DNA of 56,652 nt from Alphaproteobacteria bacterium (GTDB taxonomy: Bacteria; Pseudomonadota; Alphaproteobacteria; Micavibrionales; Micavibrionaceae). Location: contig JAJFGS010000009.1 in the NCBI GenBank assembly GCA_021775995.1, positions 1-56,652 on the forward strand. Reading direction: 5' to 3'. The position numbers and the translations under genes were made by a program. Below are positions 12,478 to 35,833 of the stretch, piece by piece (position 1 is the stretch's first letter; the number at the start of each line of letters is the position of its first letter). The notes under the pieces were generated by a model. That model saw only the letters and a list, made by a program, of their open reading frames with translations. It had not been told where the DNA came from and ran no database searches.

Positions 12478-12559
12478 ATTTTCTGACAAGGCGCAAGCGA
12501 CCCAAAATTTAATGGGAGTATTTTAATACTTTAGAAGTGAAGCAACGATGTCAGAAAAT
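12478..12559. repeat. Palindromic core repeat, copy A
   Basis: Perfect 11-bp outer arms (ATTTTCTGACA / TGTCAGAAAAT) enclose AGGCGCAAGCGAC, a central palindrome AGTATTTTAATACT, and GAAGCAACGA. The core matches copies at 20764, 24924, 29181, 31931 and 35719, but the arms are unique to this site. It lies before the rhomboid gene. Confidence 0.85.
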
Positions 12560-12620
12560 TAATGCAAATGACTATATAATCGTTTAAGAAGGAAGAAGTT
12601 TTATAAAGGTAAAATTCATT

Positions 12621-13346
12621 ATGAATTCAGACGATAACAAAAATGATGATAAAAACGATAATATCGTGTCCTTCAAGATACCTCGTAAAAAACAAGGTAT
12701 TGATAATGGCGACTTCAAACCTGCACCTGAACCGCTTATCAATATGCCCCCTTATACAAAATACTTATTGGGTATCTTAATAGGAATACATCTGGTTGTT
12801 ACTTTCCTGCTGACCAGTGATCAAACACAATGGATGTTTATAAATTTAGGGTTTATCCCAGGACGTTTTACAGGTGCCGCCCTGTTTGAACCCCTTTCTT
12901 TAATGACGCCCTTAACAAATATGTTTCTTCACGGTGGATGGCTTCACTTAGGAATGAATAGCATCATGTTATTAGCCTTCGGCAGTGGCATTGAAAAATG
13001 GATGGGTGGCAAAAAAATGATCGCATTTTTTATTTCTTGTGGTCTATTTGGTGTAGCCCTACATTTTGCCCTAAACTTTCATGCCATCACCCCTGTCATA
13101 GGAGCCTCAGGAGGCATAAGCGGTCTCTTCGCTGCCGCCCTTGTCATGTTAAACCAAACACGAAATGGCATGACAGGACGTTTTGGTCTTTGGCCTATCA
13201 TTATCATATGGGTTGCTATTTCTGTTATTTTTGGGTTTGTCGATACACCGCAAATAGGTGTTGGCAAAGGTGAGATTGCATGGGCCGCACATGTTGGTGG
13301 TTTTCTTGGTGGGTTTGCCGTCCTAAAATTGATGCATATATTGTAA
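12621..13346 (+). CDS. Rhomboid family intramembrane serine protease
   Basis: 241 residues: a polar N-terminus of about 45 residues and six membrane segments. HGGWLHLGMNSIMLLAFG carries the conserved H...N motif of rhomboid helix 2. GASGGISGLFAA contains the GxSG nucleophile serine (about residue 165). WAAHVGGFLGGF carries the catalytic histidine (about residue 225). It cleaves membrane protein substrates within the bilayer; the substrate is unknown. It converges with hemY with only 2 bases between them. Confidence 0.93.
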   Translation: MNSDDNKNDDKNDNIVSFKIPRKKQGIDNGDFKPAPEPLINMPPYTKYLLGILIGIHLVVTFLLTSDQTQWMFINLGFIPGRFTGAALFEPLSLMTPLTNMFLHGGWLHLGMNSIMLLAFGSGIEKWMGGKKMIAFFISCGLFGVALHFALNFHAITPVIGASGGISGLFAAALVMLNQTRNGMTGRFGLWPIIIIWVAISVIFGFVDTPQIGVGKGEIAWAAHVGGFLGGFAVLKLMHIL

Positions 13347-13348
13347 AA

Positions 13349-14722
13349 TTACGCGGCAGGATCAATTAATAAATTTGACCCATTATCTTTCAAAATAGAT
13401 AGCGTATCATCCACTATCACATGTGCTCTAGGGATATCCCAAACAATAGTGTTGAAACTATTATGCGGCACTGCAATCGCTGACCATTCTTGATAAACCA
13501 TACCTGTTTCTTTACAGGTCCAAACTTTATCAGGGATGGCACCACTCGCTTTTTCCAACACATCCTCAACTTTATCGTCATTATGTGTGATATTTTGTTC
13601 AACTATAGCACGCATATGAAATACTTGTGTTGTAGGATATAATTTTTCCGCTGCCATAAGATGAGCTTTGGCCTCCCCCCAAAACTCCAGCCCCATCGCC
13701 GCTTTAGCCGCGGCAATATGTCCCTCTACACTATTCACATTCAAATCTACTAACTTTTCAAACCATGCCAATTTTTTTGTATCCATGTTTTTGCCACTCT
13801 GCGGAGATAATCTATCCCAAATTTCTGCTAACTCAGGATGCGGATTAACCTTCCAGGCTTCTTCAATCAAGGAAGCGGCTTTTTTATGTTTTTTTGCATC
13901 AATATAATATTCTGCAAGACGCTCTACAGTCGGCACAAAAGATGGGTTTAATTTATAAGCGGCTTTTAATTCACGAAGCGCCACATTTTCATCACCATTG
14001 GTTTTATTGTAATCATGGCGCATTAAACTAATCGCTATGCGGTCACTTATAATTTGTTGTATAGGAATGACGCCTAATTTTTCTACCCGATGGCTAAGCT
14101 TTAGAACTTCTTCCCAATTATGATTTTTTATTTCCAAGGCATAAACCATTTTCAAAAGCCAACCTTGGTTTGAATGAAGCTTAAGCCCAGAGCGTGCATA
14201 TTCCAACGCCTGTTTAACATCACCCTCATCCAATGCTGACTTCATTAATCCACGGATACCTAAGAAAGCCATATCTTTATTTTCCAACAGCAATTCAAAT
14301 CGTTCTTTGGCAATATTCTCATCACCACGCAATCGTGCGGCCTGTGCCTCCAATAATAATGGTAACCCTGTTTGATCTTTTAATAATTTTGTTGTTTCTT
14401 TTGAATATTGCGTCGCTTTCGCTGCATCTCCTGCAGCAACTGCAACAAGCCCGCGTGTTAAGGACAAATAACCTACTTTGTGACGATATTCGGCACGATA
14501 CTCTCCAACAACCTTGGGTACAGAAAAAACAGCGCGTATAACCCTTAAAACATAGGCTAAAATTAAAACAAAAACTGCCAGAATTAATAAGAATACACCT
14601 GTTTGAATTTCAATATCGTAATTTAAAAAACTAAAGTTCATCCCTCCAGGTTGAGAAACCAACCAGATTGATATGCCAATAAAAATGGCAACTTTAATAA
14701 AAAACCATAATGTTTTAATCAT
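13349..14722 (-). CDS. hemY: HemY-type TPR membrane protein
   Basis: 457 residues. Two N-terminal membrane helices (about 7-24 and 40-62) are followed by the HemY_N region with VFSVPKVVGEYRAEYRHKVGYLSLTRGLVAVAAGD, then TPR-like helical repeats to the end. This is the HemX/HemY-associated tetratricopeptide protein, not protoporphyrinogen oxidase. It ends the haem block hemC-hemD-mitofilin-hemY, an order found widely in alphaproteobacteria. The molecular role is not firmly known. Confidence 0.9.
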   Translation of the reverse strand: MIKTLWFFIKVAIFIGISIWLVSQPGGMNFSFLNYDIEIQTGVFLLILAVFVLILAYVLRVIRAVFSVPKVVGEYRAEYRHKVGYLSLTRGLVAVAAGDAAKATQYSKETTKLLKDQTGLPLLLEAQAARLRGDENIAKERFELLLENKDMAFLGIRGLMKSALDEGDVKQALEYARSGLKLHSNQGWLLKMVYALEIKNHNWEEVLKLSHRVEKLGVIPIQQIISDRIAISLMRHDYNKTNGDENVALRELKAAYKLNPSFVPTVERLAEYYIDAKKHKKAASLIEEAWKVNPHPELAEIWDRLSPQSGKNMDTKKLAWFEKLVDLNVNSVEGHIAAAKAAMGLEFWGEAKAHLMAAEKLYPTTQVFHMRAIVEQNITHNDDKVEDVLEKASGAIPDKVWTCKETGMVYQEWSAIAVPHNSFNTIVWDIPRAHVIVDDTLSILKDNGSNLLIDPAA

Positions 14723-14753
14723 GGATATCTTTCAATTGACTTAAACGTTTAAT

Positions 14754-16484
14754 TTATTGGGTGTCAGAAAAACCTCTAAACCCACCAGATTTTTTCGGAA
14801 GAATAGTAACGCCAGATTCTTCATCTTTCACTATCTCTCCATTTCCTAAAAAAGGAACCACCTTTTGAATATTTTGTTTCATTTGGTCTATATCCACATC
14901 TGGAACTTCAACATTTTGTAAAGAATCTACAGAACCATCAACCTTAGATAAAATAACCTCATTCAACATCGTTTTAATCTGTTCTGCTAATAAAGTGGTT
15001 TGTGCTTGATCAATAAAAGGTTGTGCCGCCATGGCCGCTTCACCGTCCAGACTTTCCAAAGTCGTAATACTATCTTCAATTTTGCCTTCATCTATATATT
15101 CCTGCGCTTTTGCAACTGTAGCCTGCGTTTGCGTACCAGAAACCATTTCCCCATCTTTTTCAATGCGCACAATATCTCCAAACCGCGCCTTTGCTTTTTC
15201 TTTAATAGAAACATCTTCACCAATTAATGAAGAAACAACAATATCACCCGTCATTTTTTTTAATTCACTCGATAATCCAGCGGGTGTTAAAACACCTCCA
15301 TCCGCATGCCGACTTAAGCGAGACAATTTTTTCTGCAAAACAGGATTGTCGTCCCCAATAAGATTTTGCAATAAAGCAAGGTCTTCTTCAAATGGTGCTT
15401 CGCGTTCTAATGAAGTACGAAATTGTGAAAATGCTATTAGAATAGCGGCAGCTTTTAAATCCTGCCCCGACACTCCTACTAATGTTTCCCCTAAGGCACC
15501 CTCATCTTGATCCTGCACATCTGCAAGATTTTCATCAATATCATTGTCTTCGTCTTTAACTATTGACCGCAATTGATCGGCTGAATGTTCTAATTGCGTC
15601 TGCCCAGTTACTGTCTCTTCTAAACCACGAATACGCGCTATTAAACTAGCAAAGCTTCCTTCTGGTCCTGAAAGCTCTTCGAGCTTTGTTTCCAATATAG
15701 CTAGGCGTTCTGATATGGCTTGCGCCGTATCTCCCAAGGTTTCCGTTGATATTTCTTTAGCACGTTTTGAAAGCTGATCGACAGTGACTGAAATATTCCG
15801 CGCTTGGTTTTGTAGGCCATCAATTTTTTCCTGCAAATTATCAGGTAGTGAAGTTCCTAAGAATTTTTTTTTACTCTCAATTTCCACTTCTTCAACCTTG
15901 TCTTCTAAGTTCACAAGTTGTTGACTCTGCGCTTCTAAGGTATCTTGATTTTTCTTTAAATAAGGCCAGAATAAATACAGACCTACAGCTCCAGCCAATA
16001 AGATTAATCCTGTTGCTATCCATGTACTTGTTGCAACAGCTCTACGATTATTTTTTTCAATTTGAGAAACTATATTTTCATGATCAGATTTAACCGCTAC
16101 TTCTTCAATCTGAATTTTCTGTCCTGACCCCTTTTCATTGTCATTATAGTTACTTGCGGAAACAGAAGGAACAGATGCTGAAATAACATTAGATTCTTGT
16201 GGTTCAGTTTTTTTCTTCTTCGGTTTTGAAGCAGGAGAGACAGATTTTTGAGCGGCCTCCGTCTGCGTTGAAAGACCACCTTCTGCTATATCTGCAATAT
16301 CAATATTATGCGCTTCTGCCGCACTTAAAATTTGTGCCCGTCTGTTTCCTGGAATAACGTCACGCTTTTTCCAGCCCTGAACCGTTGTCACAGGGGTATC
16401 AATTTTTGCCGCCATCGGACGAATACCGCCAAAGCGTTCAATAATTTTCCCTGCATTTACCAAAGGTTGTTTCTTACTCGCCAT
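14754..16484 (-). CDS. Mitofilin/Mic60-like inner membrane protein with N-terminal HTH-like domain
   Basis: 576 residues from the ATG at 16484, which has AGGAGATC 6 bases upstream; the frame extends to 16505 without support. Residues 1-65 form an HTH-like domain (IIERFGGIRPMAAKIDTPVTTVQGWKKRDVIPGNRR). A Pro/Ser/Lys-rich linker and one membrane helix (about 152-172) follow, then a long coiled coil (about 178-290) and a helical C-terminal mitofilin-type domain. Alphaproteobacterial Mic60 relatives are known beside hemY and hemD and shape intracytoplasmic membranes, so the position supports the call. The stop is 31 bases from the hemY start. Confidence 0.85.
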   Translation of the reverse strand: MASKKQPLVNAGKIIERFGGIRPMAAKIDTPVTTVQGWKKRDVIPGNRRAQILSAAEAHNIDIADIAEGGLSTQTEAAQKSVSPASKPKKKKTEPQESNVISASVPSVSASNYNDNEKGSGQKIQIEEVAVKSDHENIVSQIEKNNRRAVATSTWIATGLILLAGAVGLYLFWPYLKKNQDTLEAQSQQLVNLEDKVEEVEIESKKKFLGTSLPDNLQEKIDGLQNQARNISVTVDQLSKRAKEISTETLGDTAQAISERLAILETKLEELSGPEGSFASLIARIRGLEETVTGQTQLEHSADQLRSIVKDEDNDIDENLADVQDQDEGALGETLVGVSGQDLKAAAILIAFSQFRTSLEREAPFEEDLALLQNLIGDDNPVLQKKLSRLSRHADGGVLTPAGLSSELKKMTGDIVVSSLIGEDVSIKEKAKARFGDIVRIEKDGEMVSGTQTQATVAKAQEYIDEGKIEDSITTLESLDGEAAMAAQPFIDQAQTTLLAEQIKTMLNEVILSKVDGSVDSLQNVEVPDVDIDQMKQNIQKVVPFLGNGEIVKDEESGVTILPKKSGGFRGFSDTQ

Positions 16485-16518
16485 AAAAGATCTCCTAAAA
16501 TCCAAAAACTTTATATAT

Positions 16519-17190
16519 TTAATCCAATAACTTTACCACGCTGTCACGGTCAGGCTGGTTTGCAACCAATATCTCCTTCCATGGCAATACGGAAACAGAC
16601 TTTATCATGGAAGACCCCAAACACAAGACCTTAGAATCCACTAACCCCTGACCTAACTTTTCATGCTCTATGATCGTTGTAAAAGCATCAGCCGTACGTG
16701 TTGAGAAAAAGACAATATGTGAAAACGCTCCGTTTCCAATCATATCTAAGGTATTTTTCGAAATTTTTTGTTTCATATCAGTATGATAAAGAATTTCTTC
16801 ATGAATATCACTTCCCGTTAAATCGCCTGATACATGCTCTCCTCTAATATATAAAAGCCGCTTTTGAGGTAAAATACCCTGCAAAGCCTTTAAATCACCC
16901 GAAGCACTTTGTACGTCTTTGAAGCCTAATTCTATCGCTAAATCTTGAGTAGCATCCCCAACTGTCCAAACAGGCAACTCTCGATTCTGAGTATCCTGAC
17001 CAAACGCGCGTACGGCATTTTTACTGGTAAAAATGAGCCCCTCATAAGTCTCTAAATCATCAATCTGCCTATCATGAAAGACAACGTCTAAAAATGGCTC
17101 ACAAATAACATCATAATTTTTTTGTTGAAGGGATGCCACCAACTCTATGGCATCTTCAATGGGGCGCGTTATCAAAATCGTCCCACGCAT
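16519..17190 (-). CDS. hemD: Uroporphyrinogen-III synthase
   Basis: 223 residues from the ATG at 17190, one base past the hemC stop. The N-terminal MRGTILITRPIEDAIELVASLQ and YEGLIFTSKNAVRAFG motifs and the FFSTRTADAFTTIIE segment near residue 160 fit HemD, a poorly conserved two-lobed family. It closes and inverts ring D of hydroxymethylbilane made by HemC. The hemC neighbourhood makes the call firm. Confidence 0.92.
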   Translation of the reverse strand: MRGTILITRPIEDAIELVASLQQKNYDVICEPFLDVVFHDRQIDDLETYEGLIFTSKNAVRAFGQDTQNRELPVWTVGDATQDLAIELGFKDVQSASGDLKALQGILPQKRLLYIRGEHVSGDLTGSDIHEEILYHTDMKQKISKNTLDMIGNGAFSHIVFFSTRTADAFTTIIEHEKLGQGLVDSKVLCLGSSMIKSVSVLPWKEILVANQPDRDSVVKLLD

Positions 17191-17191
17191 T

Positions 17192-18124
17192 TTAAGCCAA
17201 CATCCCGACTGGCACAATATTAGTTAAATCATGACCAACGCTTTGACCTATTTGCATGGCCTGCTCAACATTTTCACACTGACCCGAAAATGATTTTTTA
17301 AAAACCTCACGACCATCCAGCGCATAAACTTCAGCATGTAAATTTAATATATTTTCATTCATTTCGGCAAACGCTGCAATGGGTGTATGACAGGATCCAT
17401 CCAGTGCACCTAAAACTTCTCGTTCAGCAAACACACAAAATCCTGTCTCCACACAATGTACTTTGTTTAAAAGCTCATGAGACTTAGTATCATCAACACG
17501 TGTCTCCATACAAATAACACCTTGACCACAGGCAGGTAACATTTCTTTAGCGGCAAGAGGATGAATATTTTTATCTTTAATATCTAAACGTTCAATGCCT
17601 GCCATCGCTAAAAAAGTAGCATCAACTTGACCGCTATTTATTTTATCAAGCCGTGTCTGAACATTACCGCGAAACGGTACAATTTTTATATCGGGACGCA
17701 TGGATAAAATCATCGCACTTCGTCTTGCACTACAACTACCAACAACCGCTCCTTCTGGTAACTCAGCAATGGTTTTATATTTACTTACAAAAGCATCTAA
17801 TGGATTGTCGCGTGGCAAAACATGTTCAATTATTAACCCCTCTGGTAGAAAAGAAGCCATATCTTTTAAAGAATGAACCCCACAATCAATCAGACCCGTT
17901 AAAATCATTTCTTCGATTTCTTTAGCAAACAAACCCTTACCACCAGATTCTTCACTTAACGGCTTTTCCCCTTCGTTCTTTTTCCAATCTGCCTTACTCT
18001 TAATAGGCACAATCTCAATATCTAAATCTGGCTGTACTTTTTTTAAGGCAACACATAAAATATCGGCCTGACGCAACGCTAAAGGCGAATTTCTTGTTCC
18101 AATTTTAAAGACTTCCAAACTCAT
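17192..18124 (-). CDS. hemC: Porphobilinogen deaminase (hydroxymethylbilane synthase)
   Basis: 310 residues, usual length. IGTRNSPLALRQAD opens the protein. Arg-rich substrate-binding segments include GSCSARRSAMI and PFRGNVQTRLDKI, and LDGSCHTPIAAFAE near residue 240 holds the cysteine that carries the dipyrromethane cofactor. Polymerises four porphobilinogens in the cytoplasm for haem synthesis. It is divergent from tsaD with 53 bases between the starts and is followed by hemD. Confidence 0.97.
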   Translation of the reverse strand: MSLEVFKIGTRNSPLALRQADILCVALKKVQPDLDIEIVPIKSKADWKKNEGEKPLSEESGGKGLFAKEIEEMILTGLIDCGVHSLKDMASFLPEGLIIEHVLPRDNPLDAFVSKYKTIAELPEGAVVGSCSARRSAMILSMRPDIKIVPFRGNVQTRLDKINSGQVDATFLAMAGIERLDIKDKNIHPLAAKEMLPACGQGVICMETRVDDTKSHELLNKVHCVETGFCVFAEREVLGALDGSCHTPIAAFAEMNENILNLHAEVYALDGREVFKKSFSGQCENVEQAMQIGQSVGHDLTNIVPVGMLA

Positions 18125-18177
18125 ACCAGCGTTGTAAAACCTTTACACCGCTTTGAAAAGATGAAATATGTTGGCGC

Positions 18178-19275
18178 ATGGATAATCCTTTGAAAATTGT
18201 GATGGGCATTGAGACGTCTTGCGATGAAACAGCCGTCGCTATTGTACGTGAAGACGGCAAAATTCTATCCAATCTGGTTTTAAGCCAAATCAAAGAACAT
18301 AAAGCCTTTGGTGGTGTTGTCCCTGAAATTGCGGCCCGTGCCCATATGGACCATATCGATACGCTCATTAAGGGCGCGCTTGATGATGCACAGCTAACCT
18401 TCAGCGATCTCAATGGTGTCGCCGCTACGTCTGGTCCTGGTCTTATTGGTGGCGTTATGGTGGGCATGATGGCTGGTAAAGCCATTGCGGCTTCTCATAA
18501 CCTTCCTTTCATCGGTGTCAATCATCTTGAGGCACATGCTCTAACCGCACGTTTAACAGATAAAATTGAATTTCCTTACCTTATCTTATTGGTCAGCGGT
18601 GGTCATACTCAAATCCTCGTCGCCGAAGATGTCGACCAATATAAACGCTGGGGCACAACAATTGATGATGCCCTGGGGGAATGCTTTGATAAATCTGCAA
18701 AACTAATGGGACTTCCCTATCCTGGTGGGCCTAATTTAGAAAAAATGGCGGCCAATTGCCAAAACCCAACACAAGCCTTAGAAAAATTTCCACTACCCAC
18801 CCCTTTAAAAGGACGTGAGGGCTGTGATTTTTCCTTTTCTGGGCTAAAAACCGCCATTCGTAACCATGTCGAAAAACTCCCTGCTGGAGACCTAAACCAA
18901 GATGATATCGCTGATTTAGCCTATGCCTTTCAAATAACTGTCGGAAAAGTGATCGTAGATCGCTGTCAAAATGCCATAAGTCAGTTTTTATCCACCTACG
19001 GCAAAACGACGAAAAGCCCTACCCTCGTTGTTTGTGGCGGTGTTGCGGCTAATTTACATATACGCGAAGTGCTGGAAGACTTGACGAAAGCCTCTAATAT
19101 GGATTTTATGGCGCCACCTATGGGCTTATGCTCCGATAACGGTGCTATGATCGCATGGGTCGGTATAGAGAAGTTAAAACGAAATATGCTGGACACGCTC
19201 GATATAGCGGCAAGACCAAGATGGCCTTTAGACAAAGGCGCAGAAAAAAGACCAGGCGGCGGTGTCAAAGCATAA
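18178..19275 (+). CDS. tsaD: tRNA threonylcarbamoyladenosine transferase TsaD
   Basis: 365 residues. MGIETSCDETAVAIV, the metal-ligand motif HMDHID, GVNHLEAHALTARL, VSGGHTQIL, CGGVAANLHIRE and LCSDNGAMIAW are all present, giving the complete Kae1/TsaD ATPase fold with its metal ligands. It transfers threonylcarbamoyl to A37 of ANN-decoding tRNAs, with TsaB and TsaE. gpsA follows after 18 bases, a common pairing in alphaproteobacteria. Confidence 0.97.
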   Translation: MDNPLKIVMGIETSCDETAVAIVREDGKILSNLVLSQIKEHKAFGGVVPEIAARAHMDHIDTLIKGALDDAQLTFSDLNGVAATSGPGLIGGVMVGMMAGKAIAASHNLPFIGVNHLEAHALTARLTDKIEFPYLILLVSGGHTQILVAEDVDQYKRWGTTIDDALGECFDKSAKLMGLPYPGGPNLEKMAANCQNPTQALEKFPLPTPLKGREGCDFSFSGLKTAIRNHVEKLPAGDLNQDDIADLAYAFQITVGKVIVDRCQNAISQFLSTYGKTTKSPTLVVCGGVAANLHIREVLEDLTKASNMDFMAPPMGLCSDNGAMIAWVGIEKLKRNMLDTLDIAARPRWPLDKGAEKRPGGGVKA

Positions 19276-20744: not shown

Positions 20745-20763
20745 TTCATTCTAGCCATTTTGG

Positions 20764-20857
20764 GCGTTTCGCTTTATTCTTCCTGTTAGGCATGAGGAGC
20801 GAAAGGTATACCTATACCTGAGCAACGAATAACGACACAGAAGGATAAATGGAAATG
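20764..20857. repeat. Palindromic core repeat, copy B
   Basis: Core GGCATGAGGAGCGA, central palindrome AGGTATA-CC-TATACCT and GAGCAACGAA. Imperfect outer arms run from CGTTTCGCTTTATTCTTCC on the left to GGATAAATGGAAATG on the right. The right arm contains both the AAGGA ribosome site and the start codon of the EVE protein gene. The left arm resembles that of copy G. Confidence 0.75.
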
Positions 20858-21271
20858 CTCCGAAATTATTGGCTGGTAAAAAGCGAGCCTTATAAATGGT
20901 CATGGGATGATCATGTTAAAAAGGGTGTTGAGCACTGGGACGGTGTGCGCAACTATCAAGCCAGCAATAACATGAAAGCCATGAAAATCGGTGATCAATC
21001 TTTTTTTTATCATTCTAATGAAGGTAAAGAGATTGTTGGCATCATGGAAGTTGTGAAAGAATACTACCCTGATCATACAGATCCAAAAGAGCGTTTTGGC
21101 ATGGTTGATTTTAAAGCCATCAAGCCGTTTAAAAAACCTGTTACCTTAGCAACCATAAAAGAAACTAAAAGTTTGGCAGGCATGGCGTTAGTCAAACAGA
21201 TGCGCCTTTCCGTTGGCCCCGTTTCCAAAAAAGAATGGGACATCATCCTGAAAATGGGTGAAACAAAATGA
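20855..21271 (+). CDS. EVE domain protein (PUA-like, modified-base binding)
   Basis: 138 residues from the second ATG (20855), 9 bases after AAGGA; the ATG at 20849 is only 3 bases from it. NYWLVKSEPYKWSWDDHV, GVEHWDGVRNYQASNNMKAMKIGDQSFFYHS and KEIVGIMEVVKEYYPD are the EVE family hallmarks. Relatives bind modified cytosines in nucleic acid; the cellular role in most bacteria is unclear. Its start lies in an arm of repeat copy B. It overlaps the next gene by 4 bases. Confidence 0.95.
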   Translation: MLRNYWLVKSEPYKWSWDDHVKKGVEHWDGVRNYQASNNMKAMKIGDQSFFYHSNEGKEIVGIMEVVKEYYPDHTDPKERFGMVDFKAIKPFKKPVTLATIKETKSLAGMALVKQMRLSVGPVSKKEWDIILKMGETK

Positions 21272-24261: not shown

Positions 24262-24262
24262 G

Positions 24263-24820: not shown

Positions 24821-24923
24821 AATATTCCCCTGAAATTTTAATTTATAGGGGCATATTATAGAAAAAGGATTACGATTTTCTTAAGATTTACGTAAAAAAT
24901 AAGGAAATGATAGAGCAAACAGA

Positions 24924-25002
24924 TTTTTCACTGGGCAAGGCACAAGGCGCGACGCCTATTTAAAATAGGTAAGCCGAAATTCAACAACGCCAGAATTGAA
25001 AT
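24924..25002. repeat. Palindromic core repeat, copy C
   Basis: Core AAGGCACAAGGCGCGACG, perfect central palindrome CCTATTT-A-AAATAGG (24955-24969), then TCAACAACG. The outer arms are weak (CTGGGC/GCCAG). It lies between the gapR 3' end and the start of the hypothetical coiled-coil gene, both on the minus strand. Confidence 0.65.
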
Positions 25003-25011
25003 ATGAAAGCT

Positions 25012-25311
25012 CTACTCCATGCCAATAGCGGACATGTAGAGAGTTAAAAGCTCATCTTCTTCTCTACGCTTTTCAATTTCCATTTTTCTAAGCTTCATCA
25101 CGCGACGCATAATTTTTACTTCAAATCCTGCTGATTTAGCTTCGGCATACACATCTTTAATATCTTCAGCCAATGCAGATTTTTCTTCTTCTAAACGTTC
25201 AACACGGTCGAAAAATGACAATAGGCGTTTGCCTGCCACACCGGCGACATCGCCTGCTTCGCCCTCTTTACCGTCAGATTTAAATTCCGAAACATTGCTT
25301 GGATTATTCAT
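25012..25311 (-). CDS. gapR: GapR family nucleoid-associated protein (DUF2312)
   Basis: 99 residues. After a polar N-terminus of about 25 residues comes the family core: RLLSFFDRVERLEEEKSALAEDIKDVYAEAKSAGFEVKIMRRVMKLRKM, ending LYMSAIGME. Caulobacter GapR binds overtwisted, AT-rich DNA ahead of replication and transcription machinery and stimulates type II topoisomerases. The N-terminus is slightly longer than usual. Confidence 0.93.
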   Translation of the reverse strand: MNNPSNVSEFKSDGKEGEAGDVAGVAGKRLLSFFDRVERLEEEKSALAEDIKDVYAEAKSAGFEVKIMRRVMKLRKMEIEKRREEDELLTLYMSAIGME

Positions 25312-25416: not shown

Positions 25417-26052
25417 TTATCTTGTCACTACAATCCAATCTTCAATCTGAAGAGCGTCTGGGTCATCTCCGACCTTAGCTCTTGTAATTTGAAGGCGCAG
25501 GTTAAATTTACGATTAACAAATGTGTCTGTATCCTCAGCTGCAGTTTCCGTATTCTTTGGAAAAAAGCTAACCACAACAGGCATCTGATACAGCCATTTA
25601 TAAATATCATCAACAACACTGCCATTCAAAAACATAGGCGAGTCTTCAATATAAACACTCATATCATAATCATTAACACGAACGCTTTCTACAATCCCTG
25701 ATTCAAGAAGATAATCCTTATATTGCTTAAAACCCCTATCGGTAAAATAAGGGTTAATATTTTTCAAAACCTCACTGAAATTCTCTTTACTAAAAGACAA
25801 TGACTCCGAAGCCATCATTGTTAGTAACGTTTTCATTTCACTCTCGGATCGATGTGGTTTATCTAATTTAACAACATTCGCTGCTGTATTTTGAGCCGCA
25901 GTCTCTCTTATTTCCTGAACGAAAGGAGCATTTTCTGCAGGCGGAACAGCAATTACAGTGTAAAAGGCATAAAAAACAATTGCAAAAAAAGACAAGAAAA
26001 CAAAAAAGGGAATAAAAAGAGCGATAAATTTTTCGTACCAAAATTGAAACAT
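25417..26052 (-). CDS. DotI/IcmL-like protein (type IVB secretion family)
   Basis: 211 residues from the ATG at 26052, with GGGAG 5-6 bases upstream; the frame continues to 26064 without a ribosome site. One membrane helix near 10-38 is followed by a periplasmic domain with SFSKENFSEVLKNINPYFTDRGFKQYKDYLLESG, the IcmL/TraM signature, and later YKWLYQMPVVVSFF. In Legionella, DotI is part of the type IVB secretion core. No other dot/icm gene lies nearby, so here it may be a lone or repurposed homologue. Confidence 0.8.
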   Translation of the reverse strand: MFQFWYEKFIALFIPFFVFLSFFAIVFYAFYTVIAVPPAENAPFVQEIRETAAQNTAANVVKLDKPHRSESEMKTLLTMMASESLSFSKENFSEVLKNINPYFTDRGFKQYKDYLLESGIVESVRVNDYDMSVYIEDSPMFLNGSVVDDIYKWLYQMPVVVSFFPKNTETAAEDTDTFVNRKFNLRLQITRAKVGDDPDALQIEDWIVVTR

Positions 26053-26080
26053 GGAAACTCCCATTGTAAATAAAAGATCT

Positions 26081-29022: not shown

Positions 29023-29036
29023 ATTATAAAAAGTGC

Positions 29037-29061
29037 CCTCATGGCCGCAAACGGCAGGAGG
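29037..29061. repeat. 23-nt hairpin repeat, variant copy
   Basis: CTCATG-GCCGCAAACGGC-AGGAG: same layout as the copies at 1514 and 38756, but the stem-closing pair is G-C here and the outer GTC/GAC has become CTC/GAG, a paired change. Confidence 0.6.
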
Positions 29062-29180: not shown

Positions 29181-29290
29181 TTGTATAAGTAAAGAGATTT
29201 TTATCAGGTCTAGGCGCAAGGAGGGAATGTATATAAAATACATGACCGACGCTGCAACAACGACATGATGAAAATGTCAAAACTTATTAA
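29181..29290. repeat. Palindromic core repeat, copy D
   Basis: Core TAGGCGCAAGGAG, central palindrome ATGTAT-N5-ATACAT, GCTGCAACAACGA. Arms of about 30 bases on each side match at roughly 21 positions by hand alignment (for example ATTTTTATCA against TGATGAAAAT). The right arm covers the stop codon of the CBS gene. Confidence 0.8.
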
Positions 29291-29727
29291 GCAGCTTTCT
29301 TCTTTTGCTGCAATTCGGCTGTAATTTGTTGTTCTGTCTGACCTACATTGGGACGGCTCGCACTTTGCGCTAAATCACCCATAGACACAATACCAACAAG
29401 ACGTTTATCACGATTTACAACGGGCAAACGACGCACCTGAATTTCGCCCAGATTGTTACAGACTTCTTCAACATCTTGGTCGTCATAACAATAATATGTT
29501 TTTGCCGTCATGATATCACGTGCCTTTACTTCCGCAGGGTTCTTACCTTCGGCAACGGCGCGAATAGTAATATCACGATCTGTGATCATACCAATCATTT
29601 TGTCATTTTCAGCCAATGGCATAAAACCACAATCCATATCGCGCATTTGTTGTGCGACTTGAGCAACTGGGCTATCAGGTGCCATGAATTTAAAATTAGG
29701 ACTCATTACATCTTTAATTTTTGTCAT
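29287..29727 (-). CDS. CBS domain pair protein
   Basis: 146 residues from the ATG at 29727, 8 bases after GGAGG. Two CBS motifs: KIKDVMSPNFKFMAPDSPVAQVAQQM...MIGMITDRDITIRAVAEG (1-65) and VKARDIMTAKTYYCYDDQDVEEVCNNL...LVGIVSMGDLAQ (70-130). It has no partner domain, so it probably binds an adenosyl nucleotide and regulates or senses. The Lys/Gln-rich tail QQKKKAA is not part of the fold. Confidence 0.93.
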   Translation of the reverse strand: MTKIKDVMSPNFKFMAPDSPVAQVAQQMRDMDCGFMPLAENDKMIGMITDRDITIRAVAEGKNPAEVKARDIMTAKTYYCYDDQDVEEVCNNLGEIQVRRLPVVNRDKRLVGIVSMGDLAQSASRPNVGQTEQQITAELQQKKKAA

Positions 29728-29809
29728 ATCAATATCCTCCAAAAAGTTCTTTTAATAAATTTATGGGGACAGACTACGCAATAACGCCTGAAAATACAAA
29801 GAAATAATA

Positions 29810-30853
29810 TTAAGGAATTTTAAATTCTGACTTGGATGGCATGCCTGTAACAGCCTTATCATAAACACCCATGACCTTATCCAAACACGGTTGTAAGACA
29901 GCTTTTCCAGATATCGAAGAGCATTGTCCATGACAAATTTGTTTTAGAAAAAACCACGTATCTTCTGGGACAGGTTCTTTACCCCTTTCTTCTGCAAGAC
30001 AATCACTAGAATAGCCAGCGCTTTCAACATTAAGATAAGACGGTGCAACATCTGCATCTTGTAACATCAATCCTACATCAACATAATCTTCATCAACCAA
30101 AATTCTTAATTTAGGATGGACCAATTCTCTTTTACCTGTTTGAACATATTGTTCTAAACTTTCTGCAGGAGAAATTGCATGAGGATCAGAAAAATCTTTT
30201 GTTACATCCGTTGCCAAGACCAGTGCCTCAATAATGGCTAAATCTTTTGGACTCGCGCCGGCTTTAGACAGAGAAGATTTTGACTCTTGAAAAGCTATGT
30301 TCTCCAAACGAAATTGATTGATAATTGAACCAGAGCTTTGATTAATACCTTTCATGACAGAAGCGAAAGTATTACCAATACTATCTTTTTTCTCCCGACT
30401 TGTTTTTAAAGCTTGGTATCCTGAATTAAAAGCATTACGCAGATGCTCATCTAATCTATATTTTGTACCATTGACACCACCATCATGACCACGATCATGT
30501 ATCAACGCAGCGGCAAACAAATTATCTAATTTACGTCCATCCATTCGCCCTTGTTTAAGCGCATGGTATCCTAATGTATAGGACATCGCAAAAACCTGAA
30601 GAAAATGTTGGTTATGATGAAACTTATTATCATTCGGTTCTGACGCTAATTTTGCCGCCGCCTGAATAATTCTTTTTCTCGGAGTGGGAAGCTGAATATC
30701 GAATATTACGTCATCAACAAACATCCCAATATCAGGAAGTGCATCTCGCCATGATATAAATCTGTCGGCAATAGCTTCCGTATCCGCCATCAAGAAAGGT
30801 TGTATGGCAGATCGGGAGTTTCTAGCAACTGTGGCATATACATGTGTACGCAT
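29810..30853 (-). CDS. HD-superfamily protein resembling class I cyclic nucleotide phosphodiesterase
   Basis: 347 residues. Metal-ligand motifs occur in class I PDE order: HHNQH (79-83), HDRGHDGGVNG (119-129, close to the HD-x-x-H-x-G-x-x-N signature), LATDVTKDF (213-221, like LATDMSKHM of PDE4) and MLQDADVAP (263-271, placing the second aspartate). The N-terminal 70 and C-terminal 60 residues are unassigned; the latter has four cysteines. cAMP or cGMP hydrolysis is inferred, not shown. It stands alone on the minus strand, with no cyclase nearby. Confidence 0.75.
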   Translation of the reverse strand: MRTHVYATVARNSRSAIQPFLMADTEAIADRFISWRDALPDIGMFVDDVIFDIQLPTPRKRIIQAAAKLASEPNDNKFHHNQHFLQVFAMSYTLGYHALKQGRMDGRKLDNLFAAALIHDRGHDGGVNGTKYRLDEHLRNAFNSGYQALKTSREKKDSIGNTFASVMKGINQSSGSIINQFRLENIAFQESKSSLSKAGASPKDLAIIEALVLATDVTKDFSDPHAISPAESLEQYVQTGKRELVHPKLRILVDEDYVDVGLMLQDADVAPSYLNVESAGYSSDCLAEERGKEPVPEDTWFFLKQICHGQCSSISGKAVLQPCLDKVMGVYDKAVTGMPSKSEFKIP

Positions 30854-30956
30854 TTAAATGACTCTCACAAAAACACCTTTTACAGACTCATAATATTAAA
30901 CATAATCACTCAATATGTCAAACAATTGTGGGTTAAAGCCGTTAATATAAGATTAA

Positions 30957-31901
30957 TTACTCAAAAGTACCCTCATCGCCCAGCCACGTAGAAAAACCGT
31001 TATTAAACAGCCAATCTTGCGCGTCTTTATCCTCTTTCAGTGTAGCCTCCCAATAAGCGAGCGCAACAATCTTGATAATATTCTCATGTTTTTCACGATG
31101 GGGGTTTTCACCCAGCTTCCCCCGCGAGCCGCTAAATACCATATGGTCACCATCTTTAATCACCAATAAATGCTGCTCAGCCTGATTTATATTTTTATAA
31201 ACATCCAATCGTTTCATGTAATCCCAATCTTCAACAGGCGAGCTGTCATCTGTCCCCGTCATGTGCAACATCGGCATGTCAATCGAACCATAAATATCCT
31301 GCGGGTTACCCGACCCAAAATGATCCATCGGACCAGGACTATATAAAATTCCTGCTTTAAATCTTTTATCACGCAGACGGCATAATTTTCCCTTCTCATC
31401 AGGGAACGTCATTCCCCCCATCACTTGTGTCGTCAACGCACCAAAAGAATGCCCAGACATTCCAATATTATGAGTATCAACGATTTGTTGAATTTTCGGA
31501 TGCGCCGCCAACCACTCTGGTAATTGATCAAGAACAAACGGTACATCATAAAAACGATTTAAACTTGCGCTTCTTTCAATTTCCATTTCACGAATAATAT
31601 CCCACGGATGACCAGGCTTGCCCTCCCATAAGCTACTATCTGTTCCCAAATGTTGGACATGGATAATCACATAGCCATAACTTGCAATAAAGCGGGATAA
31701 AAATGATGCCCCATCAACACTACCGCCCAACCCATGACTCCAAATTATAACCGGTAGGTTTTTTAAATCATCTCCGACAGGATAATAAACTTTTATTTTG
31801 ACAGGTCGATTATCACGCGAAGCATCAATAAGCTTATCGCGCTCTATCATCACCTTAAGCGGAAAGTTTTCAGGGTCAACATTCTCATGCCAAAATAACA
31901 T
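30957..31901 (-). CDS. Alpha/beta hydrolase, dienelactone hydrolase/PAF-acetylhydrolase-like
   Basis: 314 residues from the ATG at 31901, with GAGAG upstream; a GTG directly before it is an alternative. VIIWSHGLGG (oxyanion region, about residue 53), GMSGHSFGALT (nucleophile serine in GHSFG, about 150), TGTDDSSP (acid) and KDGDHMVFSG (histidine, about 260) complete the triad in order. No signal peptide. Substrate unknown; an esterase is likely. Confidence 0.85.
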   Translation of the reverse strand: MLFWHENVDPENFPLKVMIERDKLIDASRDNRPVKIKVYYPVGDDLKNLPVIIWSHGLGGSVDGASFLSRFIASYGYVIIHVQHLGTDSSLWEGKPGHPWDIIREMEIERSASLNRFYDVPFVLDQLPEWLAAHPKIQQIVDTHNIGMSGHSFGALTTQVMGGMTFPDEKGKLCRLRDKRFKAGILYSPGPMDHFGSGNPQDIYGSIDMPMLHMTGTDDSSPVEDWDYMKRLDVYKNINQAEQHLLVIKDGDHMVFSGSRGKLGENPHREKHENIIKIVALAYWEATLKEDKDAQDWLFNNGFSTWLGDEGTFE

Positions 31902-31930
31902 CACATACTCTCTCTACTCTTCGATAGAAA

Positions 31931-32031
31931 TAGTCCTTCCAATTTATTTTGTGACAAGGCGCAAGCGACGACGAGTATTTTAATACTTTAGGAGCGCAGC
32001 AACAAAGTCACAAAGGAAAGTGGAAAGACTA
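31931..32031. repeat. Palindromic core repeat, copy E
   Basis: 25-bp outer arms, 21 of 25 complementary, at 31931-31955 and 32007-32031, around AAGGCGCAAGCGACGACG, the palindrome AGTATTTTAATACT (identical to copy A) and GGAGCGCAGCAACAAA. The right arm ends exactly with the sspB stop codon. Confidence 0.88.
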
Positions 32032-32517
32032 TTTTTTACGGAAGTTATCAAGGGAAACGACTTCCCCTTTCTTAGTATCATCATCGCCACTCTCATCACT
32101 ACCACCGCCATCTGGATCATCATCAGGATCATAATCAGACTCCAGATCATCACCAAGCGGTTGAAATTGTAATGCAAAATTAACCGACGGATCAGCAAAA
32201 ATTGTAATCGCTGCTAATGGAATTTCTAATTTTTCTGGTACATTATTAAACGATAATGTGACTTGCATCCGTTCATCATCAACATCAAGATCATAAAATT
32301 GAAATTGGAGTACAATAGTCATCTCACCTGGATAACGGTCACGCAAATAATCAGGAATCTTTACACCCGGATGATCGGTCAAAAATGTAATGTAAAAATG
32401 ATGATCGCCCGGAAGGCCATCTTCCATGACTTCCTCGACAGCCTGTTTGACCACACCGCGAAGGGCATACTCGACCATTTTGTCATATCGTAAGGTATTT
32501 TCGTCTTCTTCCATCAT
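32029..32517 (-). CDS. sspB: SspB family ClpXP adaptor (alphaproteobacterial type)
   Basis: 162 residues from the ATG at 32517; an upstream TTG at 32535 is less likely. LRYDKMVEYALRGVVKQAVEEVMEDGLPGDHHFYITFLTDHPGVKIPDYLRDRYPGEMTIVLQ is the conserved substrate-binding fold. An acidic disordered linker (130-150) leads to the C-terminal GEVVSLDNFRKK, the likely ClpX-docking tail. Delivers ssrA-tagged proteins to ClpXP, linking it to the tmRNA 2.4 kb away. Its stop codon lies in an arm of repeat copy E. Confidence 0.95.
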   Translation of the reverse strand: MMEEDENTLRYDKMVEYALRGVVKQAVEEVMEDGLPGDHHFYITFLTDHPGVKIPDYLRDRYPGEMTIVLQFQFYDLDVDDERMQVTLSFNNVPEKLEIPLAAITIFADPSVNFALQFQPLGDDLESDYDPDDDPDGGGSDESGDDDTKKGEVVSLDNFRKK

Positions 32518-32655
32518 ACTCTTTATTTGTCGCAAGATTGGGAAATAAAATCAAGAAACTTCCATATTTATAGGCAGAATTGCCATTTTGATATGTAATG
32601 ATTCGCATATTCGCAACCACAAATCCATATTAAAGCACTGCAACCCATTTTCCCT

Positions 32656-32684
32656 TGTGGAAAAATGTGGAAAAATGTGGAAAA
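32656..32684. repeat. Three tandem 10-bp TGTGGAAAAA units
   Basis: TGTGGAAAA occurs three times exactly 10 bases apart, starting at 32656. Each unit fits the loose DnaA-box consensus TTWTNCACA read on the other strand. The array abuts the stop codon of the Wzy-like gene, upstream of sspB. Confidence 0.7.
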
Positions 32685-32686
32685 GC

Positions 32687-34642
32687 TTACTCCCCACCCC
32701 AAATATGACCACCTAAAGACTGATTATCCTTTTTTATTTGCGTTGCTAAACGTCTTTGGAAACTCCGCATTTTTTGTAAAGTTTCATCACGTTTTTGTGC
32801 GTCACCATTTTGCAGATAATATTCAACCAGCTTTTGATATAAATTCATTGAGTTAATGCTTGAATATTTATACTGCGCGCCCTGTTCTAAAATTTCTATT
32901 CCACGCTTTGCATCGCCAGACCGATCATAAATTTTTGCCAATGCCAACCGCGAGCCAAGATGTAGCGGATCAATCTTTAACGCCTCGCTATAATAAAATT
33001 CTGCAGGCTGTGTCTCTTTCGACAACGCATCTTGTTCACCAACATCAATAAGCTTACCCATATAATATAGAGCAGAAGAAGACCTCGGGTTAATATATCG
33101 AACGTGATTAATATAACCCAATGCAGATTTGGTTAACTCTTCTTTTTGTTCCGTGTTTAACTTATCGCCCGCTTCTTCTAACAAACTTAATGGCATACTC
33201 ACCGCTAATAAATAAGCACGATAATTTCCATTAAACCCTATCCTTTGCGCAAAAATAACATCATCAGCAAATTCTTCTAATTCCCCCGCCAACATATGGT
33301 CTCTCGCCTTATTGGTATAATGCTCTCCTGTGATATAGGCCATAAAAAGTGCGGCCATTAAAACAAATGGCAACGCAATCAACGTCATTCTTACGCCATT
33401 AGAATATTGTTCAGGAAAACCAACCGTTTTTATTTCTGATTGCAACGTTTTTTGCGTGGCATAAAACCAAACGGCCAATAAAAAACCAATCACAAATAAT
33501 ATAGAAACGTTATAAAGATTAAATGTGACATGAGTATGAATAATCGCCGCGCATAACGCAAAAAACGGTGTTAAAATCAATATCTTTTGGTGCGGTGTTA
33601 CGGCACGCTTAACCGCTTGAACCGTGCGCCCAATAACTGTGATGATGAATGCGTAAAATAACAAAGGACCCAAAACGCCTAACTCTACCCAATATTGCAG
33701 CGGATCATTATGCGCATAATAAGTTCCAAAAATATCATCACTTAAACGAAACTCAGGAAAATATAAAAAATATGTTCCAAAACCTGTGCCAAATAAACCA
33801 TGAGCTTTAATCATTGCCACACTGGCCGCCCAAAGATTAAGACGGTTATTTGTAAAACCGTTTAAATTATCACCTTGGCTATCAGAAACCACACGATAAA
33901 ATAAACTTTCACTTTCGGCAATACCTAGGCTGGTCAGAAAAAATAATGCCGAACAACAAACAGCCAATATTCCCAAACAACGAACATGCGCTACCACAAC
34001 ATCACGCATACAAAATAAGAAAACAAATAATGTCGGCACTAAAGCATATAAAGCGCCCCGACTAGCCGCAACAACGATGCCTCCAAACAATAATATGGCC
34101 AAAACTAATGCTAGATTACGGTATAGCCTTTGATTAGCTCCCAACATCAAACCAACGCTACAGAAAAAACCTAAACTAAATAAAGCCGCCAAAGAATTTG
34201 GGTTGGCGAGCGGATAATTCGCCCTCCCACCAAAATATTCACCAAAAACAAAAAACTGCGCCAATGCACTTAGGCTTAGGCCTGCATAAATCAAACCAAC
34301 AGCTTTGGCTGTATATATAAAACTGTTATCTGATCCTTTAATAACAAAAACAAAAAACGTTAGCGGCATGATACTAAACAAACAAAAGGCCATCAAACTA
34401 ACATTTAAAACATCTGACCCAATAACACTGACAAAAACCAACAGCCAAAATACAGCCATAAGTTTTAAAACCCAAGAAGATGGTATTTGCCAATCACCAT
34501 CCTTGGACAAACTTATCACTGACCAAACAAAGACCAAAATGACGGCACTGGCAAATAACTCTAATTGTAAATCATTTATAAAAAACAAACCGCATAACAA
34601 GGCGGCGATCCAGATTAAGGAAGGCGACAATTTTTGAATCAT
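32687..34642 (-). CDS. O-antigen ligase-like membrane protein with C-terminal TPR region
   Basis: 651 residues. About 12-13 membrane helices in residues 1-440, with the Wzy_C superfamily loop near 285-325 (GTGFGTYFLYFPEFRLSDDIFGTYYAHNDPLQYWVELGVLG). A periplasmic helical region with TPR-like repeats follows (about 450-640, for example AEFYYSEALKIDPLHLGSRLALAKIYDRSG). Such WaaL/PglL-like proteins transfer polysaccharide to lipid or protein; which one cannot be told here. It is far from the main polysaccharide locus. Confidence 0.87.
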   Translation of the reverse strand: MIQKLSPSLIWIAALLCGLFFINDLQLELFASAVILVFVWSVISLSKDGDWQIPSSWVLKLMAVFWLLVFVSVIGSDVLNVSLMAFCLFSIMPLTFFVFVIKGSDNSFIYTAKAVGLIYAGLSLSALAQFFVFGEYFGGRANYPLANPNSLAALFSLGFFCSVGLMLGANQRLYRNLALVLAILLFGGIVVAASRGALYALVPTLFVFLFCMRDVVVAHVRCLGILAVCCSALFFLTSLGIAESESLFYRVVSDSQGDNLNGFTNNRLNLWAASVAMIKAHGLFGTGFGTYFLYFPEFRLSDDIFGTYYAHNDPLQYWVELGVLGPLLFYAFIITVIGRTVQAVKRAVTPHQKILILTPFFALCAAIIHTHVTFNLYNVSILFVIGFLLAVWFYATQKTLQSEIKTVGFPEQYSNGVRMTLIALPFVLMAALFMAYITGEHYTNKARDHMLAGELEEFADDVIFAQRIGFNGNYRAYLLAVSMPLSLLEEAGDKLNTEQKEELTKSALGYINHVRYINPRSSSALYYMGKLIDVGEQDALSKETQPAEFYYSEALKIDPLHLGSRLALAKIYDRSGDAKRGIEILEQGAQYKYSSINSMNLYQKLVEYYLQNGDAQKRDETLQKMRSFQRRLATQIKKDNQSLGGHIWGGE

Positions 34643-34727
34643 AAAGATACTGTCGCTTGCCGTGAATCAATCGTCAACATAAAGAATAATATCACCCTGT
34701 CGTAAAACAGTATCCATTACTTCAAGC

Positions 34728-34858
34728 TGTCATTCCCTGAATTTGTAAAACAAATTCTAAGGGAATCCATTTTTTAAATTTTCTATTTCTCTAGGCATGA
34801 GGAGCGACGAAAAAATAACAAGAGAGGGAAATAGCGTCCTCGCACTTGCGCGCATGAC
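34728..34858. repeat. Nested repeat mosaic, copy F
   Basis: In order: a GTCATTCCC...GGGAATCCA hairpin with inner CAAATT pairing (about 34728-34770); arms CTATTTCTCT/AGAGAGGGAAATAG around a shortened core (AGGCATGAGGAGCGACG); then a 23-nt hairpin repeat in reverse orientation (34836-34858, GTCATG...AGGAC on the minus strand). It follows the start of the Wzy-like gene and precedes the tmRNA terminator. Confidence 0.7.
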
Positions 34859-34879
34859 GGCTTCTTATTAAAAAAAATA

Positions 34880-34915
34880 AAAAAAATGCCCGTTTTCTGT
34901 TGCTAGGTTACGGGC
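34880..34915 (-). terminator. tmRNA terminator
   Basis: On the minus strand GCCCG and CGGGC pair around an 18-base loop and are followed by A and eight T. Confidence 0.75.
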
Positions 34916-35310
34916 AACCCCACCTTCACCAGTTCAACGGCAAAGGAATTATGTAGCTGTTGCTACCGAGCCCAATTAGGCTGCGATCGCTTCGTCACTA
35001 ACGATATTATCGTTAGCGGCTACGAACTGAGAGTTGTCATTTGCAACTATCAAATTTATCCGATAACGGCGGAAAGCCGAACACCGTGCGATACCTTTAC
35101 TACGCGTGTCGATCCTGTTTCAGCCCCATTGTTTTACACGAGTTATTTCTTGAGAGACCCCAAGGCTTGCGACTGCAAGCCCGCGACATCGTTGTCGCGT
35201 AAACCAAAATGTAAAATGGTGGAGCTGCCGGGTACTGCCCCCGGGTCCACGATCGCTTATTCCGTAACCACGTTTAGCGTCATAACGGGCAAGCCCGTAC
35301 CTTCAATATA
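34888..35310 (-). ncRNA. ssrA: tmRNA, two-piece (permuted) alphaproteobacterial form
   Basis: Transcription order is acceptor piece, intervening segment, coding piece. The acceptor piece ends CAGCTCCACCA at 35217, with stem CCGGG/CCCGG around an unusual GGCAGTA T-loop. The coding piece begins GGGGCTGAAACAGGATCGAC at 35130; GGGGCTG pairs with CAGCTCC of the acceptor piece. A pseudoknot-like GC-rich stretch and a tag reading frame beginning at a GCA resume codon after GATAGTT follow. This permuted gene with a maturation cut is known in alphaproteobacteria. It rescues stalled ribosomes with SmpB. The outer ends (about 35310 and 34888) are estimates. Confidence 0.93.
34976..35044 (-). other. tmRNA tag peptide reading frame
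   Basis: 22 codons plus TAA from the GCA at 35044. The tag opens ANDNSQFVA, then repeats ANDN, and ends SDEAIAA. Alphaproteobacterial tags usually open ANDN and end AA after about 12-15 residues, so this one is long. The second ANDN is encoded by an 8-bp hairpin (CTAACGAT/ATCGTTAG, 34998-35016). Confidence 0.9.
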
Positions 35311-35434
35311 CGCCCTCACCCCTTAAAATACAACTAAAATACATAAAATATAGGAAATTATTCCTCGACTGTTCCGCTATAAAGTGCTATTCTGCTGAAT
35401 GGTTATTTTAAAGAAGCATACACCCCAACCCCAT

Positions 35435-35533
35435 CAGCATCCCACCATCCTCCAGCATCCCACCATCCTCCAGCATCCTGACGAAAGTCAGGATCCAGTA
35501 AAACCAAACTGGATCCCAAATCAAGTTTGGGAT
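35435..35533. repeat. Tandem 18-bp repeat followed by small palindromes
   Basis: Two exact copies of an 18-bp unit (CAGCATCCCACCATCCTC, 35435-35470) lead into ATCCTGAC-GAAA-GTCAGGAT (35475-35494) and ATCCCAAA-N5-TTTGGGAT (35513-35533). The second resembles dispersed intergenic hairpins of alphaproteobacteria. The open frame across this stretch is repeat-derived and not a gene. Confidence 0.75.
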
Positions 35534-35718
35534 GCCCGCCTCTGTCTTAAAATTGAAACATTACATAAAACAACGAGGATACCCCCTCCCCCCCAATTTC
35601 CAGCGAGCAAAAAGAGTAACTCTAATTCATCATTAAAATCAAAGGGTTACAAGCCAGAAAAATACCCTTATGTCCCTTATAGAGAATCGCCTATATTGAT
35701 TTTTATACGTAATAGATC

Positions 35719-35833
35719 GTCGTTCCGCTTTATTCCTACACGAGGCACAAGGAACGACGCGTATGGATTTATACGCGAGAGACGAAGTAACCTAAAGACG
35801 AAGTAACAAAGTGTAGGAATAAATGGGAATGAC
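35719..35833. repeat. Palindromic core repeat, copy G, at the thyA start
   Basis: 23-bp arms, 20 of 23 complementary (35719-35741 and 35811-35833), around GAGGCACAAGGAACGACG, palindrome GCGTAT-N6-ATACGC and GAGACGAAGTAAC; that last part is duplicated (16-base direct repeat). The right arm carries the GGGA that serves as thyA ribosome site, 4 bases before the ATG. Confidence 0.88.

Follow-up and report, generated by a model that had tools for sequence, protein, structure and literature searches.

Does a palindrome that recurs along one contig, with a constant core and arms that seem to differ at every site, represent a structured sequence held by selection on pairing, or a mobile element whose insertion copies its own flank in inverted orientation? 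The question was raised by six copies and a partial one, predicted from sequence in 56,652 nucleotides of the Micavibrionaceae assembly GCA_021775995.1 (contig JAJFGS010000009.1; the whole stretch is called the window below). We consider it reasonably likely that these copies belong to an undescribed family of non-autonomous palindromic elements of about 112 nt, resembling miniature inverted-repeat transposable elements (MITEs) and ERIC sequences, whose members insert whole and are recognised by the shape into which one strand folds. The window's own genome (G000) comprises 1,996,750 bp in 15 contigs, and the closest named relatives of its RplQ are Micavibrionaceae or Micavibrio metagenome-assembled genomes with at most 81% identity. 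Together with the alphaproteobacterial type of the window's tmRNA, this makes it very probable that the genome belongs to this group. Micavibrio is placed in the alphaproteobacteria; in the NCBI taxonomy it is still filed under Bdellovibrionota.

One hairpin with covarying arms

A full copy of about 112 nt forms one long hairpin, in which outer arms of about 25–28 nt enclose a left core, a central hairpin and a right core. In alignment A4 of 25 copies 93.9% of the cells are paired, against 69.7% after shuffling and 41–51% in slid controls. Double compensatory changes are found at 29 of the 33 pairs in these copies and at 30 of 33 when 88 copies are used, and the covariation score of the 25 copies is 0.692 (shuffled 0.219, slid 0.11–0.16). 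As alignments A3–A5 and A7 were fitted to the structure, the 25-copy figures lean towards it, but the slid controls are far off. Strong covariation was thus obtained, and the claim that the letters of the central palindrome change while pairing is kept stands.

The original prediction is borne out in part for the rest of the hairpin. The arms are indeed constrained by pairing (92.3% of arm cells paired in 25 copies), but they are not unrelated between sites: they share a near-invariant TTT/AAA block and the common ends TATAGTC...GACTATA and are diverged versions of one arm. On the aligned letters, “locus-specific arms” are therefore better seen as covarying divergence of a shared arm. Likewise, the element has a conserved core, which is not an unpaired constant block but itself pairs and covaries: columns 40–84 form A-U in 13 of 25 copies and G-C in another 10, columns 44–79 and 48–75 behave similarly, columns 37–87 are G-C in 25/25, and columns 45–47 face 76–78 in tandem G.A pairs with two alternative registers. 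Columns 19/107 form a near-fixed mismatch, with a standard pair in only 5/25 copies, and columns 14/112 and 20/106 pair in 13/25 each (14/112 mostly as G.U, which was counted). Arms that were perfect inverted copies would not share this mismatch and these half-paired columns. The fold is asymmetric between the strands, since G.U far exceeds A.C (189 versus 24 in 88 copies), and therefore it is the written strand that folds, not its complement.

All six full copies and the partial copy F were confirmed in the window as follows; element E, with its parts, is the best-scoring copy.

Element A, 12458–12579, plus strand: full copy whose left core carries an 11-nt insert, also present in copy L007; its arm ends 46 nt upstream of the ATG of a rhomboid gene (12621)
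Element B, 20756–20866, plus strand: full copy; the right arm overlaps the ATG of an EVE-domain gene (20849, longest-ORF start)
Element C, 24907–25018, plus strand: full copy; the right end lies at the stop codon of a minus-strand open reading frame (ORF)
Element D, 29181–29291, plus strand: full copy; the right end lies at the stop codon of a minus-strand CBS-domain gene (29287–29742)
Element E, 31926–32036, plus strand: best-scoring copy
Left outer arm of E, 31931–31956, plus strand: pairs with 32007–32031
Left core of E, 31957–31973, plus strand: AGGCGCAAGCGACGACG (class I)
Central hairpin of E, 31974–31987, plus strand
Right outer arm of E, 32007–32031, plus strand
Element F, 34780–34831, plus strand: shortened copy with arms and left core, without the central hairpin
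Element G, 35712–35840, plus strand: full copy in which a stretch of the right core is duplicated

Covariance model R1, built from the six window copies, recovers all six on the plus strand, as expected by construction, and matches F weakly (16.3 bits, E 0.12). A, B, D, E and G each fold with a lower energy than any of the 200 shuffles. Taken singly, the folds of C and F are unexceptional (C z −1.4, 20/200 shuffles as good; F z −1.1, 34/200), C being the weakest among the six. Two own-genome copies, L004 and L007, have in common an 11-nt insert that adds a small hairpin (CCCAAAATTTAATGGG) and therefore probably had a recent common parent. In L028 a longer insert with hairpins of its own lies in the right core.

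Spread, insertion and orientation

That further copies exist is clear from the model searches, whose E-values are rough. R1 found 29 full-length copies in the 2.0-Mb own genome at E < 1e-6, of which 23 lie outside the window and were unused in building the model, and it matched 28 of 38 genomes, the own one included. Within the order, model R2, built from 25 copies, matched 79 of 142 genomes. In a sample of 289 genomes from the class it matched 24, three of them members of the window's own family; the other 265 class genomes gave no match. Copy numbers are lower bounds, because only 13–26 candidates per genome were scored in more than 40 genomes; the relatives' loci sampled were the best-scoring ones, and some genomes have one listed copy each. 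The alphaproteobacterial loci with the element span about 39% to 65% GC, and at the 65% GC locus, in G280, the core is similar and the arms are different.

False positives of the models look rare: in 96 other stretches (275 kb) the sole R2 hit was an already known copy. An RplQ-based scan of named genomes gave 80 loci, and none of the 19 that were scanned has the element; two 43-nt pattern hits in viral contigs were matched by R2 in neither case, and BLAST gave no match for one copy against plasmids or for another against phages and plasmids. Rfam gave no match to the element at the gathering score for the window or at E ≤ 1 for seven loci. Nor is the family described in the literature surveyed on bacterial palindromic and MITE repeats, Micavibrio repeats and dispersed covarying RNAs, a survey outside which many subscription papers lie. 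The prediction that no described family fits thus agrees with Rfam and with this literature; the Rickettsia palindromic elements (RPE) are set apart by description, not by sequence.

The element is present here and absent at most orthologous sites. R1 found none in eight syntenic stretches (145 kb) from six congeners, of which G005 spans the whole element region of the window and the other five cover parts of it. At 15 further own-genome sites, whose orthologues were located via chained neighbour peptides, 12 lack the element in every relative fetched (one to four per site), and three are shared, at rplQ (with G003 and G005), atpD (G005) and rpsI (G004 and G005). Likewise, none of the 30 relative loci fetched for orthologues of sites in genome G098 carries it. 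Compared with G005, the site of element A is empty, element G occupies the place of the native end of the thyA leader, and the right-end CTA of element E (32029–32031) is the TAG stop of the minus-strand SspB gene, here supplied by the end of the element, whereas the gene ends in TAA in G005. The empty site of element B is not clean, because nothing in the G005 stretch matches the EVE-domain gene at the DNA level.

Nine G098 sites were compared base by base, the left flanks not being alignable in all. At L254, the nearest G098 relative, G089, has the empty sequence GAATAGA-TA-AAAGGAG where the filled site reads GAATAAAAA-TA-[element]-TA-GAAGGAG, a 2-bp duplication. In most of 20 near-consensus copies the ends are TA...TA. 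Insertion therefore probably takes place into TA dinucleotides, with ends TA|GTC...GAC|TA. The native left flank reaches the insertion point at L020, L254 and L015, in the last with small differences, and as judged from these alignments both arms arrived with the element. This bears on the two alternatives that the original prediction had left side by side. A structured, dispersed and mobile element is supported; the proposal that insertion makes an inverted copy of the flank fails at these best alignable sites, where the flank is intact and both arms are new. The sites of E, A and C align too poorly to tell.

The six window copies all lie on the plus strand, with three plus-strand and three minus-strand genes to their right. 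On contig C5 of the own genome, all ten copies below 425 kb share one orientation, and all six above 743 kb have the opposite one. Neighbouring listed copies share their strand in 84 of 106 pairs (65/76 within the order, 19/30 in the rest of the class; 73/85 within 100 kb, 11/21 beyond). When the flanks are read in the direction of the element, their GC skew is negative for 25 of the 29 own copies. It is also negative in 22 of 28 convergent or divergent contexts, in which coding bias ought to cancel out. As judged from GC skew and strand agreement, copies within the order are oriented with the replichore. The leading strand is usually G-rich; if this holds here, the element strand is the leading-strand template, and the fork meets the right-hand gene before the element.

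Position relative to genes is asymmetric too: it is the 3' end that lies at gene boundaries. The sample comprised 107 distinct elements (88 model hits and 19 more from G098), with start codons assigned by rule rather than by a gene finder, so the stop-codon test is the unbiased one. Among the 91 elements with a gene called on both sides, the right gap is at most 6 nt in 53 (14.0 expected for uniform positions; never more than 26 in 20,000 simulations) and the left gap in five. In the stop-only test, right-hand minus-strand genes end at −4 to 5 nt in 17/28 cases and left-hand plus-strand genes in 4/65 (Fisher 4e-8). For right-hand plus-strand genes the start codon lies at −12 to 6 nt in 44/73, at 7 to 31 nt in 12 and farther away in 17. 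In the window, the right end of element G lies immediately before the ATG of the thymidylate synthase gene thyA (35837). The gene-edge rule is thus strong but not absolute, and the right spacer may erode with age, which is suggestive only (near a boundary in 9/17 of the near-consensus copies of G098 versus 20/28 in G000). Three copies stand immediately before tRNA-Leu genes, L048 has its right end where a tRNA-Gly gene finishes, at the 3' end of that gene, and the partial copy L054 also borders a tRNA; because of such copies, neither the ribosome-binding site nor the stop codon is the whole reason.

Similar genes carry the element in more than one genus, namely a sigma-54 regulator in four genomes and SRP54 in three (Pfam, one member each). 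L129 and L245 were considered as one gene hit twice, which was rejected: they are different tRNA synthetase genes, L129 being LeuS by Pfam and L245 presumably IleS. In L256 (G098 C52:39300–40100) the element lies within the first codons of a gene that we take to be murI-like, and it appears to supply the start codon, because the frame is open from an ATG in its right arm. That the hairpin is transparent between Shine-Dalgarno (SD) sequence and start codon was also considered but is not supported in general, since the 16 nt to the left of the element contain an SD-like word at only 6/36 start-abutting and 6/71 other sites.

The window holds further features. A transfer-messenger RNA of the alphaproteobacterial (permuted) type lies on the minus strand at 34885–35337, between elements F and G, and a DotI/IcmL-like protein (type IVB secretion) is encoded on the minus strand at 25417–26064. 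A second family of short palindromic repeats, of the CGTCATGCCCGCAAGCGGGAGGACG type, is found at 34835–34868, 38746–38779, 29026–29060 and 1513–1536; it resembles published CGTC-tagged repetitive extragenic palindromes (REPs) of alphaproteobacteria. At the 3' end of rpsD (L071), G005 has an unrelated palindromic repeat (GTCATTGCGAG...CTCGCAATGAC) where G000 has the element. This spacer looks as if several repeat families were drawn to gene ends.

Weighing the explanations

We propose that an imperfect palindrome of about 112 nt inserts whole and folds into one long hairpin, and that recognition would depend on the folded shape of a single strand, made up of two covarying arms, internal loops containing G.A pairs and a short terminal hairpin. 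The arm letters would be free to drift as long as pairing is kept, and therefore the arms look site-specific. Insertion into the TA of a stop codon would remake TAG, and insertion into TATG would keep the start codon. We infer a putative trans-acting recombinase whose substrate would be the folded strand, either as single-stranded DNA or as RNA. Once inserted, copies in sense 5' leaders keep their pairing better than antisense copies that follow a stop codon, which may be due to selection on the mRNA or to age. A more far-reaching version is rather unlikely as a whole, and we offer it tentatively: both selection on the element and its movement would depend on the shape that one strand takes in three dimensions, with nearly free arm sequence and a polarity defined by the fork. 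It would persist where its 3' side meets a start codon, a stop codon or a tRNA end, each a conserved functional sequence, as though this flank aided targeting or retention by a so far undescribed mechanism.

Several observations weigh against an inserted, fold-recognised element. No transposase tracks it among the four families tried (reverse transcriptase, TnpB, IS630-type and Y1). The probable TA duplication has one clean pair of filled and empty sites behind it. Strand agreement is weak outside the order, with the 19 of 30 pairs given above. The proposal does not account for the 3' end, rather than the 5' end, lying at gene boundaries, and similar genes hit across genera suggest either hot spots or copies that are old and possibly useful. 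Conserved core letters, too, diverge more in antisense than in leader copies (0.176 versus 0.079), and the difference in pairing between the two, described next, may come at least partly from age.

That difference bears on a cis-regulatory RNA leader, in which a 5' UTR hairpin binds a factor or gates ribosome access and spread is incidental. We judge this unlikely, although a number of results favour it. A co-oriented start codon lies at −3 to 6 nt in 36 of 101 elements with a right-hand gene call, and copies ahead of SRP54 and the sigma-54 regulator recur across genera. Broken pairs amount to 3.3% in 45 leader copies and 9.2% in 17 antisense copies (Mann-Whitney 0.0016), and the bias towards G.U over A.C is greater in leader copies, 100:6 versus 35:8 (Fisher 0.026). 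In each of three divergence classes, with few copies, the leader copies have fewer broken pairs. Pairs of leader copies at the same site have kept their pairing at rplQ in G000/G005 (five changed pairs kept, none broken) and at the sigma-54 regulator in L025/L134 (seven kept, two broken). Other shared-site counts are 14 kept and two broken at rplQ in G000/G003, six kept and six broken or unpaired at atpD in G000/G005 and, at rpsI, 5 and 6 in G000/G005, 11 and 3 in G000/G004 and 11 and 8 in G005/G004. The numbers are small, and some of these pairs may be separate insertions at one place. A leader does not account for the 17 of 28 right-hand minus-strand genes at whose stop codon the element stands antisense, for the three copies preceding tRNA-Leu genes, for the mostly unrelated housekeeping genes among the neighbours examined, or for the emptiness of most sites in the relatives fetched.

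Quite improbable, in our estimation, is a single-stranded DNA element moved by a Y1 transposase of the RAYT/IS200 type, as for REPs and REPINs. Hairpin shape and strand polarity are in its favour, as is the one Y1_Tnp match in 9 of 10 genomes of the genus, that of the own genome among them. REPs, which are dispersed extragenic hairpins, lie near gene ends, and the GTAG ends of some furnish TAG stop codons, according to PMC3733652. Yet Y1_Tnp, which matches 13 of 38 genomes, is unmatched in the element-rich G013, G019, G020 and G036, REPs measure 20–40 bp and have a GTAG or CGTC foot, and a TA duplication is probable here.

The other enzyme families fared no better as partners. RVT_1 matches 9/38 genomes and DDE_3 (IS630-type) 4/38 at E ≤ 0.001, G000 being in neither set and G013, G019, G020 and G036 not in the second, and TnpB (PF07282) matches 0/38, with 6 of 14 control genomes positive. 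As partners, reverse transcriptase, TnpB, IS630-type and Y1 enzymes do not track the element. Genome G010 has 22 DDE_3 matches, short, with near-equal scores and several at contig ends, which suggests that these IS630-type fragments are a multicopy insertion sequence breaking the assembly.

Very improbable is the maintenance of pairing by DNA repair, through template-switch correction of quasi-palindromes instead of selection on a folded strand. Such repair would yield covariation without function, although nothing here supports it directly. Correction would erase the shared internal loops, whereas columns 19/107 stay unpaired in all but 5 of 25 copies, and it should treat G.T and A.C alike, against the 189:24 observed. 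An inverted copy of the flank is hardly credible: pairing at the outer ends often continues into flanking sequence (as in E and L029) and the outer right arm of C resembles the native flank of G005, but the flank is intact up to the insertion point at L020, L254 and L015 with both arms new, and the arms share a consensus and a near-fixed mismatch.

For a mobile, fold-recognised family the consequences are broader. Small dispersed palindromes are usually defined by sequence, and families that need only arm pairing are thus easily overlooked. The pairs of filled and empty sites make it possible to test whether movement depends on the fold, whether polarity is tied to replication and whether gene edges are targeted. 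Should selection act on the leader copies, the family is in addition a mobile supply of structure for 5' UTRs.

Comparison with known repeat families

The element differs from REPs in its length of about 112 nt and its ends TAGTC...GACTA, in place of a GTAG or CGTC foot on 20–40 bp. REPs, according to PMC3733652, have the downstream gene at varying distance, whereas the element often abuts a start codon. ERIC/IRU of enterobacteria, RUP of pneumococcus and Correia/NEMIS of Neisseria are, according to PMC2229807, non-autonomous sequences of less than 200 bp with inverted-repeat ends, TA at the termini and target duplication. The element is like them short and non-coding, with terminal inverted repeats and TA ends. 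It is unlike them in belonging to another clade, in arms that covary rather than form conserved terminal repeats, in its orientation by replichore and in its 3' end against gene boundaries; moreover, DDE_3 (IS630-type) is unmatched in 34 of 38 genomes, the own one included. One end of Correia elements may resemble the end of this element (ACAAGGCGACGAAGC).

The RPE are alphaproteobacterial palindromes of 105–146 bp with long stem-loop models, according to PMC2229807. Compared by description, they also lie between genes and are noted for in-frame insertion inside genes, whereas the element lies at gene edges. Integron attC sites are folded single strands recognised by structure, with poorly conserved arm sequence and strand polarity. 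In anatomy only, the element is like attC, with its folded strand, drifting arms and polarity; unlike attC, it occurs as dispersed single copies beside ordinary chromosomal genes. In kind, we regard it as a TA-associated non-autonomous palindromic repeat, as known from other bacteria, and its unusual features are arms constrained mainly by pairing, the replichore polarity and the gene-edge rule.

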